From assembly GCA_029204225.1 (NCBI GenBank), contig CM055108.1, positions 11,067,782 through 11,131,781 of the forward strand: a stretch of DNA of 64,000 bases. Reading direction: 5' to 3'. Both the position numbers and the translations under genes were made by a program. Shown here piece after piece: positions 16,078-34,248 of this stretch. Numbering within the stretch: position 1 is the stretch's first letter; every line of letters starts with the position of its first letter. The DNA comes from Diphasiastrum complanatum (taxonomy: Eukaryota; Streptophyta; Lycopodiopsida; Lycopodiales; Lycopodiaceae). Under the pieces are notes generated by a model that saw only the letters and a list, made by a program, of their open reading frames with translations, ran no database searches and was not told where the DNA came from.

Positions 16078-16525
16078 TGTTAGAATTTAGCAATATTCAC
16101 ATGGTTTTTGATGTATATTAGACATCTATGTGGATCCACACGTGTGAGGACCTGTCCACACGTGTGAAATGACACTTGTAATATTCAGATCCATTTTGAT
16201 TAGCTTTCATTTGAGTCTAATCTGACATCTCCTAAATTATAGGAGTTAGGTCCTAGATTGAAGGTCAACATAAACCACCAATGGATGATGTGGCAAACTT
16301 GATAGATCTTATCCAAAGTGGATATGGATGAGTACAATGAGCTGTCCCACATGTGCTGGATGCAACTTAGAGAGAGATTATGATGATTTTGTACTTGATC
16401 CATGATGGATCCATTATTGAGCTAATGATGAGAAACATTGGTTTGTGAAGCCATCTTGGAGTTTACACTCTCTTAAGCACTTTCTTTGTGGATGAATGCT
16501 AAGTAAATGTTTAGTAAACTATTTC
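16078..16525 (+). repeat. 5' LTR of element F
   Basis: Starts TGTTAGAATTTAGC and matches 20519-20977. The last bases are missing compared with the 3' copy, consistent with the deletion that removed the PBS. It contains the palindrome CACACGTGTG twice. Confidence 0.85.
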
Positions 16526-16526
16526 A

Positions 16527-19500
16527 ATTGAAGCCTATCTTCTTGAGGCTAGTGAAAGGCTAAATTCTAATAATTATTCAACTTGGAAAGTAAGAATGGA
16601 GTCTCTACTTGTGCTCCAAGATATGTATGATCTTGTCATAGGAGAGGAAGAAGAACCTCAAGGAGGGCAAGATCTAGTGAGGTACAAAAAGAGAGCTAGA
16701 CTAGCATTACATTGCTTGAAAATGAATGTTAGTAATGAACTTCTAAAGGAAGTGGCATCTTGTACCTTGGCTAAGGAGGCATGGGACTACCTTAAAGGGA
16801 TTTATGAATCCAAAATTACCTCTAGAGTGCTTATGCCATTAGAAACAAAATTCTTCAAAGCATTAGACGGAGTGAAGAGAGTGCAAGAGTATGTCTTGAG
16901 AATAAAATCTCTCAACAAAGAACTTTCCATCATTAGTGAGGGTATTCATGATGATGAACTTGTTCAAATCATTTTGAATGGTCTTGGAGATGAGTTCTCC
17001 GATCTTGTACAAAGCTTTGCTATTCGAGATGCACTACCTTCCATTGACAAGCTCCATAGTGTGCTTGTGGCCGAGGAGAGTAGGATCCTTCATGTCAAGC
17101 AAAGGATTGGATCCTTGAAGTTGCATGATGGTGATGAGAAGGCCAACTTCTCAAGCAAGGGAAAGGCAAAGTCAAAGAAGAAGATCCAACACAAGGAGAC
17201 CAAGAATGATGATCAACCATCAAGCTCCAAAGGTGAAAAGAAGAACAAAGCCAAGCTCAAGTGCTTCTTTTGTGGAAAGAAGGGGCACTTTGCATCCGAG
17301 TGTTTTAAGAAGAAGAATGCACAAGGAGAGAGCATACAAGGCAACCTCACTCTTGAGGAAGATGAGGATGAAGTGGATTCATCCTTAATGGCCTCTATAT
17401 CAACATCCAAGGGCTACTCCAATGACCCATGGTGGATTGATAGTGGGGCTAGTTCCCACATGACATTCCAAAAGGATTTTTTCTCAACTCTTGTACCTTT
17501 TGTAGGTTGTAAAAAGTCTATTCTAACAGCAAGTGATCAAGAATGTAGAATAGATGGAGTGGGAACTTTTCCCTTAAGTCTTGGATCCTCTAAAAGAGTA
17601 GATCCTGATAATGTATTCTATGTTCCTACACTCACTAAGAATTTCTTAAGTGTAGGACAATTGATGGATGATGGCTTAGATGTCCATTTTAAGCAAGGTG
17701 TTTGCTCCATATTGATGAATAATACTTGCATTGTAAATGGATTCAATCAAGGAAGGCTTTTTAAGCTAGATGCTAATGTTTTTCTTGGAAGTGTGAACAT
17801 GGTGAAGGAGGAGCTCAATCAAGTGGAGCTTTGGCATAAGAGGTTGGGCCATCCCAACTTCAAATCTATGGAGATGCTATGCACCAAGAATATTGCTCTT
17901 GGCCTTCCAAAGACACTCTCAAAGTGTGGAAAAGTTGTGAAGCTTGTAGCCTCTCAAAGGCACAAAAGCTACCTTTTGATATCTCTTCCACTAGATCTAC
18001 AAAAGCATTAGATCTTATTCATAGTGATGTGCACTCTTTTTCTCAAGAATCTAATGGAGGTGCATCTATGTATATATCTTTTATTGATGATTACTCTAGA
18101 TACACTTGGATTGAACTCTAGTTGAAAATCAAATTGATGCTAGAATTAAAGTATTGAGGAGTGATAATGGTGGAGAGTATATCTCCACCAAGATGATAGA
18201 GTTTTGTTAATCCAATGGCATTAAGAGAGGACTTACATGTACTTATAGTCCTCAAAAAAATGGTATAGCTGAGAGGATGAATAGAACACTTTGTGAGTGT
18301 GCTAAGGCTTTGAGGTTAGATGCATCTCTACCTAAGTCCTTTTGGGGAGAGGCTATTATTTGTGCAACTTATTTGTGTAATTGATTGCCATGTAAGCCCA
18401 TTGGAGGCATAACATCTTATGAGGCTCTATTTTGTAAGAAGTCCAATCTTAAAGATCTAAGAATTTTTGGATCTACTTGCTATGTTTTTCAAGCATTAGA
18501 TACAAGAAAAAAGGATGATCCTACTTCTATAAAGGGGATCTTTGTTGGTTATGCTGAAAATAGCAAAGGATATAGAGTCTATAATCCAATCACTAAAAAG
18601 ATTTTAGTGAGTAGAGATGTTACTTTTGATGAAGGTAACTACTATCAGTTGAATGAGAAAGCTTCTAATCCATCTTATGTCAAGGATCTTGTAAGGTTTG
18701 AGGAGGAGCCTACATGTGATCAAGATCTTGAAGATCCATCTCAAGATCTGAGGACTCCAAGGAGATCTACAAGAAGGAAGGCCGAGCCCTCAAGGCTCAC
18801 CTATGTTGACAAAGGTGAACAAAGGGAAGATCTACATTCACTTACCTCTTACACTTTTCTAACTTCTATGTTTGATGAGCCAAGTTGCTATGAAGAAGCT
18901 CTTGAGTCACAATAATGCTTCTTGGTTTCCAAGGGGAGGCTCGAACCTGGGACCAAAGAAACTTTGGATGCCAAGCTAACCAGTTGAGCCAACCCCATTG
19001 AGTCACAATAATGGAGGGATGCCATGCAAAAGGAGTATGATGCTCTTATGGAGAATCATACATGGAAGCTTGTGGATCTTCCTCATGGAAGAAATCCACT
19101 TGAGTGCAAATGGATCTATAGGTTGAAGTACAATCAAGATGGGAGCATCAACAAACACAAGGCAAGGCTAGTGGCAAAGGGGTTCTTGCAAACCAAGGGA
19201 GTAGATTTTGATGAAACTTTTGCTCCTATTGCTAAGCTAGTTTCCATAAGGTTGATTATTTCTCTTGAAACTACTTTCAATTGGCCTCTATTTCAACTTG
19301 ATGTGACTAATGCTTTTCTCAATGAATATTTGGAAGAGGAGATTTTCATGAGGCAACCCGAGGGCTTCATCAAAGAAGATCAAGAGGAAAAAGTGTGTTT
19401 GTTGCTAAGAAACCTTTATGGGAATAAGCAAGCACCTAGAGCTTGGTACTCTAGGTTGAATACTTTCTTGAACTCTATTAAGTTTGTTGTAAGTGCTTAT

Positions 19501-20460
19501 GATCCTTCTTTGTACTTAAGATTCAATGATGGTAAGATCATCATTCTCATTTTGTATGTTGATGACATTATCCTTAGTGGAAATGATCATGTTGATATAT
19601 AGGAAGTGAAAGTAGCATTGTTTAAGGAGTTTAATATGGTGGATCTTGGTAATCTTCATTTCATATTAGGAATAGAAGTTTCAAGAGGCAAGGATTTGAG
19701 TTTTATTTGTCAATCCAAATATGCTACTTCTATCTTAGAAAAGTTTGAAATGAAATATTGTAAAGGAGTAGAAACTCCTATGGAGCAAAATGTAAAAGTT
19801 TCCAATAGTGATGATGAAGCATCCTTTGAGAACATCACACTATATAGGAGACTTTAGGCTCCTTGATCTATCTTACTATAACTAGGCCTGATCTAAGTTA
19901 TAGTGTAGGTAAACTAAGCCAATCTATGCAAAATCCATTGGTTTGTCATTGGAAAAATGCAAAAACGGTGTTGAGGTACATCTCGGCCACCAAGAACTTT
20001 GGATGGATCTAATCTAGGGAATATTCGGATGCTGATTTGGTAGGTGATAAGGTGGATAAGAGGTCCACAAGTGCTTTTCTTACCTTCCTTTGCAATGGCA
20101 TAGTGTCCTTGGCTTTCCAAAAAGCAAGATGCTATTTCTCTACCTTCAACCGAATCAGAATACAAAGCACTAACATCCACAACAAAGGAGATCCTATGGT
20201 TGAAGAGGCTTTTGGTGGAGTTGCAAGTCATGGAGGCCAAGGAGCAGCCAATAATATTTTGTGACAACCAATCAAATTAAGCATTAGCAACCAATCCCAC
20301 ATTCCATGCAAGGAGAAAGCACATAGAGATTGCTCACCATTTTGTGAGGGAAAAGGTTCAAGCAAAGGAGATCAAGCTGCATCATGTGTCTTCTTCAGAT
20401 TGCCTTGCTGATCTACTCACTAAAGCCTTGCCAAAGACTTCATTTATCAAGTTAAGATCA
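16527..20460 (+). pseudogene. Copia gag-pol of element F
   Basis: Gag is open from 16527 (first Met 16596) through the knuckle CFFCGKKGHFASEC near 17260 to the protease box DSGASSHM near 17440 and the integrase zinc region WHKRLGHPN near 17830. A +1 shift near 17930 moves integrase (CEAC, HSDVHSF, FIDDYSRYTW) to another frame, and stops or a deletion lie near 18118-18210. The integrase C-terminal part and linker read 18385-18915. After the SINE, RT is open 19024-19602 with LYVDDIILSG; a stop follows, then DLGNLHFILG and a decayed RNase H to about 20450. Inactive, but RT and gag cores are well kept. Confidence 0.9.
18918..18997 (-). mobile_element. 80-bp tRNA-like SINE, copy 1
   Basis: An 80-bp insert in the linker-RT region of F, flanked by the perfect 16-bp direct repeat TTGAGTCACAATAATG (18902-18917 and 18998-19013). 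Read on the minus strand it has an A-box-like TGGCTCAACTGG and a B-box GGTTCGAGCC spaced as in a tRNA gene, and ends AACCAAGAAG. It has no tRNA-unrelated body and no A-tail. A second copy with the same ends is at 34079-34156. Long target duplications plus internal pol III boxes point to LINE-mobilised retroposition. It is not a working tRNA because the T stem does not pair. Confidence 0.8.
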
Positions 20461-20509
20461 GCCTTAGGAGTTGTAGATAGATGTACTATAGTTGTATCAT
20501 GTAAAAGTT

Positions 20510-20518
20510 GAGGAGGAG
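20510..20518 (+). other. Polypurine tract, element F
   Basis: GAGGAGGAG immediately before the TG of the 3' LTR, the expected plus-strand primer position. Confidence 0.8.
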
Positions 20519-20987
20519 TGTTAGAATTTAGCAATTTTCACATGGTTTTTGATGTATATTAGACATCTATGTGGATCCACATGTGTGAGGACCTGTCCAC
20601 ACGTGTGAAATGACACTTGTGATATTTAGGTCCATTTTGATTAGCTTTCATTTGAGTCTAATATGACATCTCCTTAATAATAGCAGTTAGGTCCTAGATT
20701 GTAGGAATCTAGAAGGTCAACACAAACCACCGATGGATGATGTGGCAAACTTGATAGATCTTATCCAAAGTGGATATGGATGAGTACAATGAGTTGTCCC
20801 ACACGTGCTAGATGCAGCTTAGAGAGAGATTATGATGATTTTGTACTTGATCCGTGATGGATCCATTATTGAGCTAATGATGAGAAACATTGGTTTGTGA
20901 AGCAATCTTGGAGTTTACACTCTCTTAAGCACTTTCTTCGTGGATGAATGCTAAGTAAATGTTTAGTAAACTATTTCTCTGTTATCA
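20519..20987 (+). repeat. 3' LTR of element F
   Basis: Starts TGTTAGAATTTAGC. It carries a 12-base extra segment near 20703 compared with the 5' copy and is taken to end at GTTATCA. Scattered differences from the 5' LTR show it is not recent. Confidence 0.8.
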
Positions 20988-33985: not shown

Positions 33986-34078
33986 TCAACTTACAAAAGT
34001 AAGCAGAGAGAAGAAGAAGAGCTTAAAACATAGTAGGCATTGTGGGTTTCCTTCTGCCATGTCCCTGTTGCAACGAGG

Positions 34079-34156
34079 GTGTTGGCTCAATTGGTTATCT
34101 TGACATCCAAAGTTTCTTTGGTCTCAAGTTCGAGCCTCCCCTTGGAAACCAAGAAG
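34079..34156 (+). mobile_element. tRNA-like SINE, copy 2
   Basis: A 78-bp insert flanked by 21-bp direct repeats (34058-34078 and 34157-34177) with one mismatch. It shows A-box TGGCTCAATTGG and B-box AGTTCGAGCC, and ends GAAACCAAGAAG exactly like copy 1 at 18918-18997. It lies about 95 bp after the RING-H2 stop codon and before a possible poly(A) signal, so it is probably in the 3' UTR. The readings through it with CPCCNE repeats are just the duplicated target sequence. Confidence 0.8.
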
Positions 34157-34248
34157 CATGTCCCTGCTGCAACGAGGATTACTACTCCATTATATCGAAG
34201 ACACAACATAGATACTGTTTCTCATTGAGAGAGAGCATAATCAATGCC

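Follow-up and report, generated by a model that had tools for sequence, protein, structure and literature searches.

How so short a SINE can be integrated and propagated, and what determines the place where it lands, is the question raised by an insertion at positions 18902 to 19013 of the window, i.e. of the whole stretch of 64,000 nucleotides of Diphasiastrum complanatum DNA that was analysed. According to our analysis, the insertion is probably one copy of a body-less, tRNA-like SINE of about 86 bp, which is mobilized in trans by a non-LTR retrotransposon via target-primed reverse transcription (TPRT), and whose split target site is reused on the 5' side of existing copies, which gives rise to polar arrays. 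The relevant features of the window are the following; a slash marks a junction or a nick, and TSD stands for target duplication.

16078-20977, plus strand: copia LTR element into which copy 1 is inserted, with LTRs inferred at 16078-16525 and 20519-20977
18902-18917, minus strand: 3' TSD of copy 1 (direct reading)
18918-18997, minus strand: SINE copy 1, 80-bp core (direct reading); about 86 bp if the head ACTCAA, which overlaps the TSD, is counted
18921-18933, minus strand: possible 3'-terminal hairpin CTTGG-AAA-CCAAG of copy 1, just ahead of AAG/CATT
18937-18947, minus strand: pol III B box GGTTCGAGCCT of copy 1 (by reading)
18980-18991, minus strand: pol III A box TGGCTCAACTGG of copy 1
18998-19013, minus strand: 5' TSD of copy 1 (CATTATTGTGACTCAA on the minus strand; reading and empty sites)
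19014-19033, minus strand: upstream half (-20 to -1) of the target signature of copy 1, with C at -20, TT at -18/-17, T at -6, and C at -1
34038-34057, plus strand: upstream half of the target signature of copy 2, with C at -20, TT at -18/-17, C-T-T at -7 to -5, and C at -1
34058-34078, plus strand: 5' TSD of copy 2 (CATGTCCCTGTTGCAACGAGG; direct reading)
34079-34156, plus strand: SINE copy 2, belonging to the GGGTGTTGG...TTGACATCC subfamily (direct reading and family comparison)
34157-34177, plus strand: 3' TSD of copy 2, 20 of 21 positions identical to the 5' TSD (direct reading)

The original prediction had described copy 1 as a minimal tRNA-like SINE with a perfect 16-bp duplication, and this description holds: the TSD TTGAGTCACAATAATG is identical in both flanks at 16 of 16 positions (18902-18917 and 18998-19013), and pol III A and B boxes are present at the spacing typical of tRNAs. 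The A box agrees with TRGYNNARNNGG at 12 of 12 positions and the B box with GGTTCGANTCC, the B-box consensus, at 9 of 11; the stricter B-box pattern GGTTCGANNCC had no match in copy 1, and an Rfam search gave no tRNA match for the SINE. These boxes make transcription by pol III plausible. Copy 2, for which the same 3' end and a long duplication of its own had been predicted, agrees with copy 1 at 29 of the last 30 nucleotides (0 matches in 100 shuffles), in addition to its TSD of 20/21. The head ACTCAA of copy 1 coincides with target letters and is thus concealed within the 16-bp repeat. As a further observation, the stop of a RING-H2 reading frame is found about 94 bp upstream of copy 2; the segment 34058-34177 thus lies in the presumed RING-H2 3' UTR and could influence polyadenylation or regulation.

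Copy 1 is inserted into the copia element between the SH3-like domain and RVT_2. The uninterrupted junction has 277 matches in the genome within 3 mismatches (control 0), and each of the 100 matches listed among these 277 contains 2 or 3 mismatches. Because such empty sites exist, copy 1 is younger than the copia family, in agreement with the predicted order of events.

In the 1.74-Gb assembly which contains the window, the 28-nt tail of the SINE has 3,226 exact matches, and 6,862 matches if up to 3 mismatches are allowed; the reversed pattern, which served as control, gave 0 matches at both stringencies. The family is thus numerous, as had been expected from two insertions in the window. From the genome-wide density, one would expect about 0.25 copies in 64 kb; with two copies, the window is somewhat rich. 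The predicted length of 80 bp has to be corrected: genomic copies begin about 6 nt further 5' (ACCCAAYGGGG) than the 80-bp core, which gives a full length of about 86 bp. The head reads ACCCAAY, or in variants ACTCAAG or ACCAAC, followed by GGGG, and the 3' end is AAGAAG without a run of A or T. The proposed absence of a body and of an A-tail is borne out: an A-tail is missing both in copies 1 and 2 and in the copies identical to the window's 80 nt, and a longer version of the SINE was not among the fetched copies. Clustering of the 152 full units in the two samples described below gave three main subfamilies with 91, 26, and 16 members, the consensus sequences of which differ at 5-7 positions. 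The 86-mer RNA folds at -32.5 kcal/mol (z -2.2), and in this structure CCAA-GGGG of the head is base-paired to CCCC-UUGG close to the 3' end. UUGG thus has the CCAA of the head as its partner in the full-length RNA and does not form a local 3' hairpin; the isolated hairpin folds at -6.1 kcal/mol, which is no better than for shuffled sequences (z -0.33). A scan of viral contigs with a 21-nt part of the tail gave 0 matches.

The mode of insertion was deduced from an unbiased sample, namely the first 100 tail places along contig C1, 97 of which were fetched. After removal of repeated views (L064-L067, L069, L070) and of near-identical or segmental duplicates (L097, L098, L099, L109, L121, L052), 80 groups remained: 54 single copies with a TSD of at least 9 bp, 10 single copies without a clear TSD, and 16 arrays. 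TSDs, called with one mismatch tolerated, hence occur in 54 of the 64 single groups, i.e. in most of the sampled single copies, as predicted; their modal length is 15 bp, and 45 of the 54 span 13-18 bp. The dispersed copies thus have TSDs of their own as well as a common 3' end, as is characteristic of tRNA-derived SINEs. Note that the copies were picked by their tail, so that the common 3' end postulated originally is partly built in; what stands is that the duplication begins directly after AAGAAG. CAT is found at this position in 73 of the 80 groups, and also in 38 of 41 neighbour units which lack the exact tail. Moreover, 22 of the 112 C1 units are truncated at the 5' side, starting at element position 10 or beyond at many different points, and among the truncated single copies a TSD of 9 bp or more is present in 10 of 15. 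TSDs combined with 5' truncation and an intact 3' end are the reason why we infer TPRT.

An alignment of 68 C1 sites, anchored on the start of the TSD and leaving out groups without a clear TSD, revealed a split target: SYTT at -20 to -17, VTY at -7 to -5, and Y at -1, followed by CATT. The nick side has Y at -1 and CA at +1/+2 in 68 of 68 sites, T at +3 in 64, and T at +4 in 55. In the near upstream module, position -7 is other than T in 65/68, T occupies -6 in 49/68, and Y is found at -5 in 55 and at -3 in 54 sites; in the far module, C or G occurs at -20 in 56/68, T at -18 in 52/68, and T at -17 in 54/68. Between the two, positions -8 to -16 contribute 0.05 bit or less each. A first BLAST sample served as hold-out for positions -22 to -1 and also supplied arrays to the comparisons of units, subfamilies, and direction (its duplicates L013, L027, and L032 were removed). 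Its 30 loci score 4.0 bits, as compared to -6.0 at 1,633 background CATT sites (p 4e-17); the query of this sample contained CATTATTG, and that octamer is consequently over-represented. Genome-wide, CAT follows directly after 3,030 of the 3,226 exact tails. The sites of copies 1 and 2 score 16.8 and 12.3 bits, respectively, the mean of the 68 C1 sites being 12.0 in-sample and about 10.4 when leaving one out. In copy 1, the first nick would lie between 19013 and 19014.

These features can be combined in a model of insertion. The endonuclease complex of the candidate non-LTR retrotransposon partner, which would mobilize the SINE RNA in trans by TPRT, is proposed to recognize a split site about 24 bp long and to nick the bottom strand at Y/CATT, leaving a primer ending in ...AATG-3'. 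Since nearly every source copy has its own CAT(T) directly 3', the SINE RNA would nearly always carry CAU(U) after AAGAAG, and such a tail would allow primer and template to pair; transcripts with ends AAGAAGCAUU(N) would fit this inheritance of the tail. Cleavage of the second strand would take place about 13-17 bp downstream. Once the SINE is inserted, the complete site would be kept on the 5' side and be lacking at the 3' junction; the context AAGAAG/CATT indeed scores only -6.6 bits, as opposed to 12.0 in-sample for real sites. A complete site that exists only on the 5' side could be reused there, giving polar arrays of independent insertions. More tentatively, and with somewhat less than even confidence, we propose that the signature represents a new, nearly site-specific code in which three modules about one helical turn apart (SYTT, VTY, and Y/CATT) are read, CATT is inherited as the priming tail of the RNA, and the full site is re-created exclusively on the 5' side, so that the arrays are polar and datable.

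Arrays of this kind are frequent. The 16 arrays among the 80 C1 groups are arranged head to tail and consist of 2-10 mostly diverged units with one duplication in common, repeated with a period of about 100 bp (element plus TSD); note that picking copies by their tail enriches for arrays. For a single junction type, 413 occurrences were counted in the genome (control 0). The 71 of these 413 junctions that were examined represent 51 loci and 47 different spacers, and 67 of them contain CATT. In 19 of 20 arrays with at least two full units (both samples, indels counted), there are at least 4 aligned positions at which the units differ. Because the units diverge, most arrays are not multiplied single insertions, and we consider it quite unlikely that unequal crossing-over or segmental duplication created them later from one insertion each. 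The 5' truncation of some units right at the TSD points in the same direction, as does the comparison of units: in most arrays, the units appear to be related to one another no more closely than to other members of the family. Such processes have nevertheless left traces in their favour: a two-unit pattern is repeated in L063, including a common mutation of the TSD, the two units of L112 differ at one position, and several loci are segmental duplicates. The difference between units also led us to reject, for most arrays, a return of read-through RNA to the site of the copy from which it was transcribed.

A single event of reiterative TPRT, in which copying of the left TSD overhang into the growing cDNA restores the primer and synthesis continues on a second SINE RNA, would accommodate different templates and at the same time nearly constant TSD lengths. 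In fact, when TSD boundaries within 24 arrays are compared with that of the unit lying furthest 3', 39 of 54 comparisons show the same boundary, whereas a fraction of 0.20, estimated from single copies, is expected if boundaries were independent. A fixed overhang, however, predicts neither TSDs of unequal length in one array, as found in L068 and L125, nor non-genomic letters shared by neighbouring TSD copies, so that this explanation seems unlikely to us. Such letters are AG after the TSD in units 1-3 of L063 and AGTG in the TSD copies of units 1-2 of L108, which is absent from the genomic flank; in L120, unit 2 carries AACC, matching the head of the next unit. In all three loci, the letters of the TSD copies resemble the 5' junction of the neighbouring unit and not the genomic flank. 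Serial insertion on the 5' side would be expected to leave both constant boundaries and inherited junction letters. Where the boundary deviates, the TSD is shorter in 12 of the 54 comparisons and longer in 3 (sign test, p=0.035), but only 5 of the 12 shorter ones are clear (L068 twice, L086, L105, L125); of the others, those in L063 and L095 reflect mutated TSD letters, the one in L014 an odd TSD, and that in L094 a chance extension. L041, unit 2 of L014, and L011/L013, a paralogous pair with flanks 96% identical, are at variance with strictly 5'-ward growth. We interpret the arrays as the result of repeated insertion at one site with growth towards the 5' side, which may be the general rule; the evidence for the direction is suggestive, not strong.

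Specificity for the site does not account for the number of arrays. With 187,000 effective sites, about 4% of insertions are predicted to share a site for 7,000 copies, whereas 48 of the 112 sampled C1 units belong to arrays, a value biased upwards since neighbours are counted. This under-prediction means that something local is also at work or that recombination has enlarged arrays. Likely contributions come from recombination within arrays, as in the two-unit repeats of L063, and from local accessibility, or else an existing insertion attracts the next one. That better-matching sites become arrays was not supported: the sites of arrays score no better than those of single copies (14 vs 54, p 0.97). 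In this context, L063 (C1:15.42 Mb) and L109 (C1:43.79 Mb) deserve mention, which are segmental duplicates of about 94-97% identity with one target, but contain 10 and 3 SINE units, respectively, in different order; they constitute a natural experiment on the growth and loss of arrays.

The enzyme supplying the machinery is presumably a LINE, and both the target and the 3' end of the SINE bear on its clade. The signature is unlike the TT/AAAA of L1 and the Tn-TA of RTE. An ordinary tRNA SINE that was mobilized by an L1-clade LINE via poly(A) and whose tails have since eroded is hardly credible: the genome does contain LINEs that have a zf-RVT domain and end in poly(A), but even copies identical to the window's 80 nt lack an A-tail, so that the data already contradict this route, and TSDs start with CATT after Y and not at TT/AAAA. 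Neither the poly(A) tail nor the TT/AAAA target of L1-mobilized SINEs was thus observed. A partner of the RTE clade is very doubtful as well. In RTE LINEs, as described in PMC13295347, the nick is at TA and a stretch of T's lies about 10 nt upstream, and the split target of the SINE with its upstream T's recalls this signature. In our sites, however, the interval from -8 to -16 is not enriched, T's being located instead at -6 and -17/-18, the nick is Y/CA instead of TA, and a (TTG)n tail is missing. Measured against that description, the SINE thus has neither the Tn about 10 nt upstream nor the TA nick nor the (TTG)n or T tail of RTE-mobilized SINEs. It shares with RTE-associated SINEs, as presented there, a split signature upstream of the nick and a first TSD letter tied to the 3' end of the RNA; it differs by having two upstream modules, another spacing, and the nick Y/CATT.

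A LINE with a matching 3' tail, which the original prediction had suggested to look for, did not emerge from searches restricted to exact tails. The search with the same 13-18-nt tail yielded 25 hits and no recurrent LINE family; a second one gave 99 hits (control 1), and the 10 recurrent ones that were read turned out to be other repeats or SINE variants. Protein searches gave 144 matches for PF14529, of which 8 downstream stretches were read, and 71 matches for zf-RVT, of which 12 LINE ends were read. Five of these ends (L155, L157, L159, L160, L163) have poly(A), and we take these LINEs to be of the L1 clade. The only lead is that the SINE end weakly resembles a 3' hairpin found in a LINE that occupies (TC)n tracts (p 0.02-0.05, uncorrected).

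With regard to known systems, body-less tRNA SINEs have precedents such as rodent ID, which has an A-rich tail and uses L1. Like ID, the SINE consists of little beyond a tRNA-like promoter module; unlike ID, it ends in a fixed AAGAAG before CATT. Au-like and p-SINE families are longer than this SINE. According to PMC3747384, plant Au-like and p-SINE families resemble it in having a tRNA promoter, no poly(A), and an unknown partner LINE, but end in T runs where our SINE ends in AAGAAG. Since CAT follows AAGAAG in the above 3,030 of 3,226 exact tails, the short 3' T run of Au-like SINEs is absent. For ZmSINE2/3 and LINE1-1_ZM, PMC3747384 proposes a 3' hairpin in a stringently recognized end; this logic is similar, but a matching LINE tail is lacking here and the hairpin is not better than shuffles. 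In cat CanSINE arrays, existing SINE loci are likewise re-targeted, giving tandem arrays; the TSDs at the hotspots described in PMC4084570 are different, overlapping, or unique, whereas here one near-constant TSD is reused up to 10 times.

In the literature covered, mostly non-subscription papers, no earlier report of this SINE family or its signature was found. The family itself may well have been named somewhere; the target signature and the arrays are the new part, going beyond the earlier call of a minimal SINE. Since the SINE is very short and its target both sharp and split, its many natural insertions lend themselves to working out how the endonuclease reads DNA, and the same insertions could reveal the link between RNA tail and nick site. 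If ordered arrays at single sites are confirmed, they would record the succession of active subfamilies.

Several observations on other elements were made along the way. The loci L135-L139 (on C3880, C9, C16, C697, and C4) contain a LINE in (TC)n or (TTTC)n tracts, the 3' end of which is a hairpin followed by AAAAGAC(A/G)TTAATAA; this is a microsatellite-targeting LINE in a plant. Behind the tract, further LINE-like reading frames are found in L137, L138, and L139, while the PF14529 downstream stretches L140-L142 contain no LINE frame. PF14529 endonuclease-like frames at L153, L154, L167, and L168, next to which no RT was recognized by eye, are reminiscent of the endonucleases of Helitron-type elements. 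Finally, zf-RVT matches lie in open frames that recur with lengths of 1577 or 1527 aa, and in some cases in frames as long as 7,233 aa, on the small unplaced contigs C429, C630, C895, C2882, C3077, C3692, C4775, C4778, and C5075, and may reflect either recent amplification or foreign sequence.
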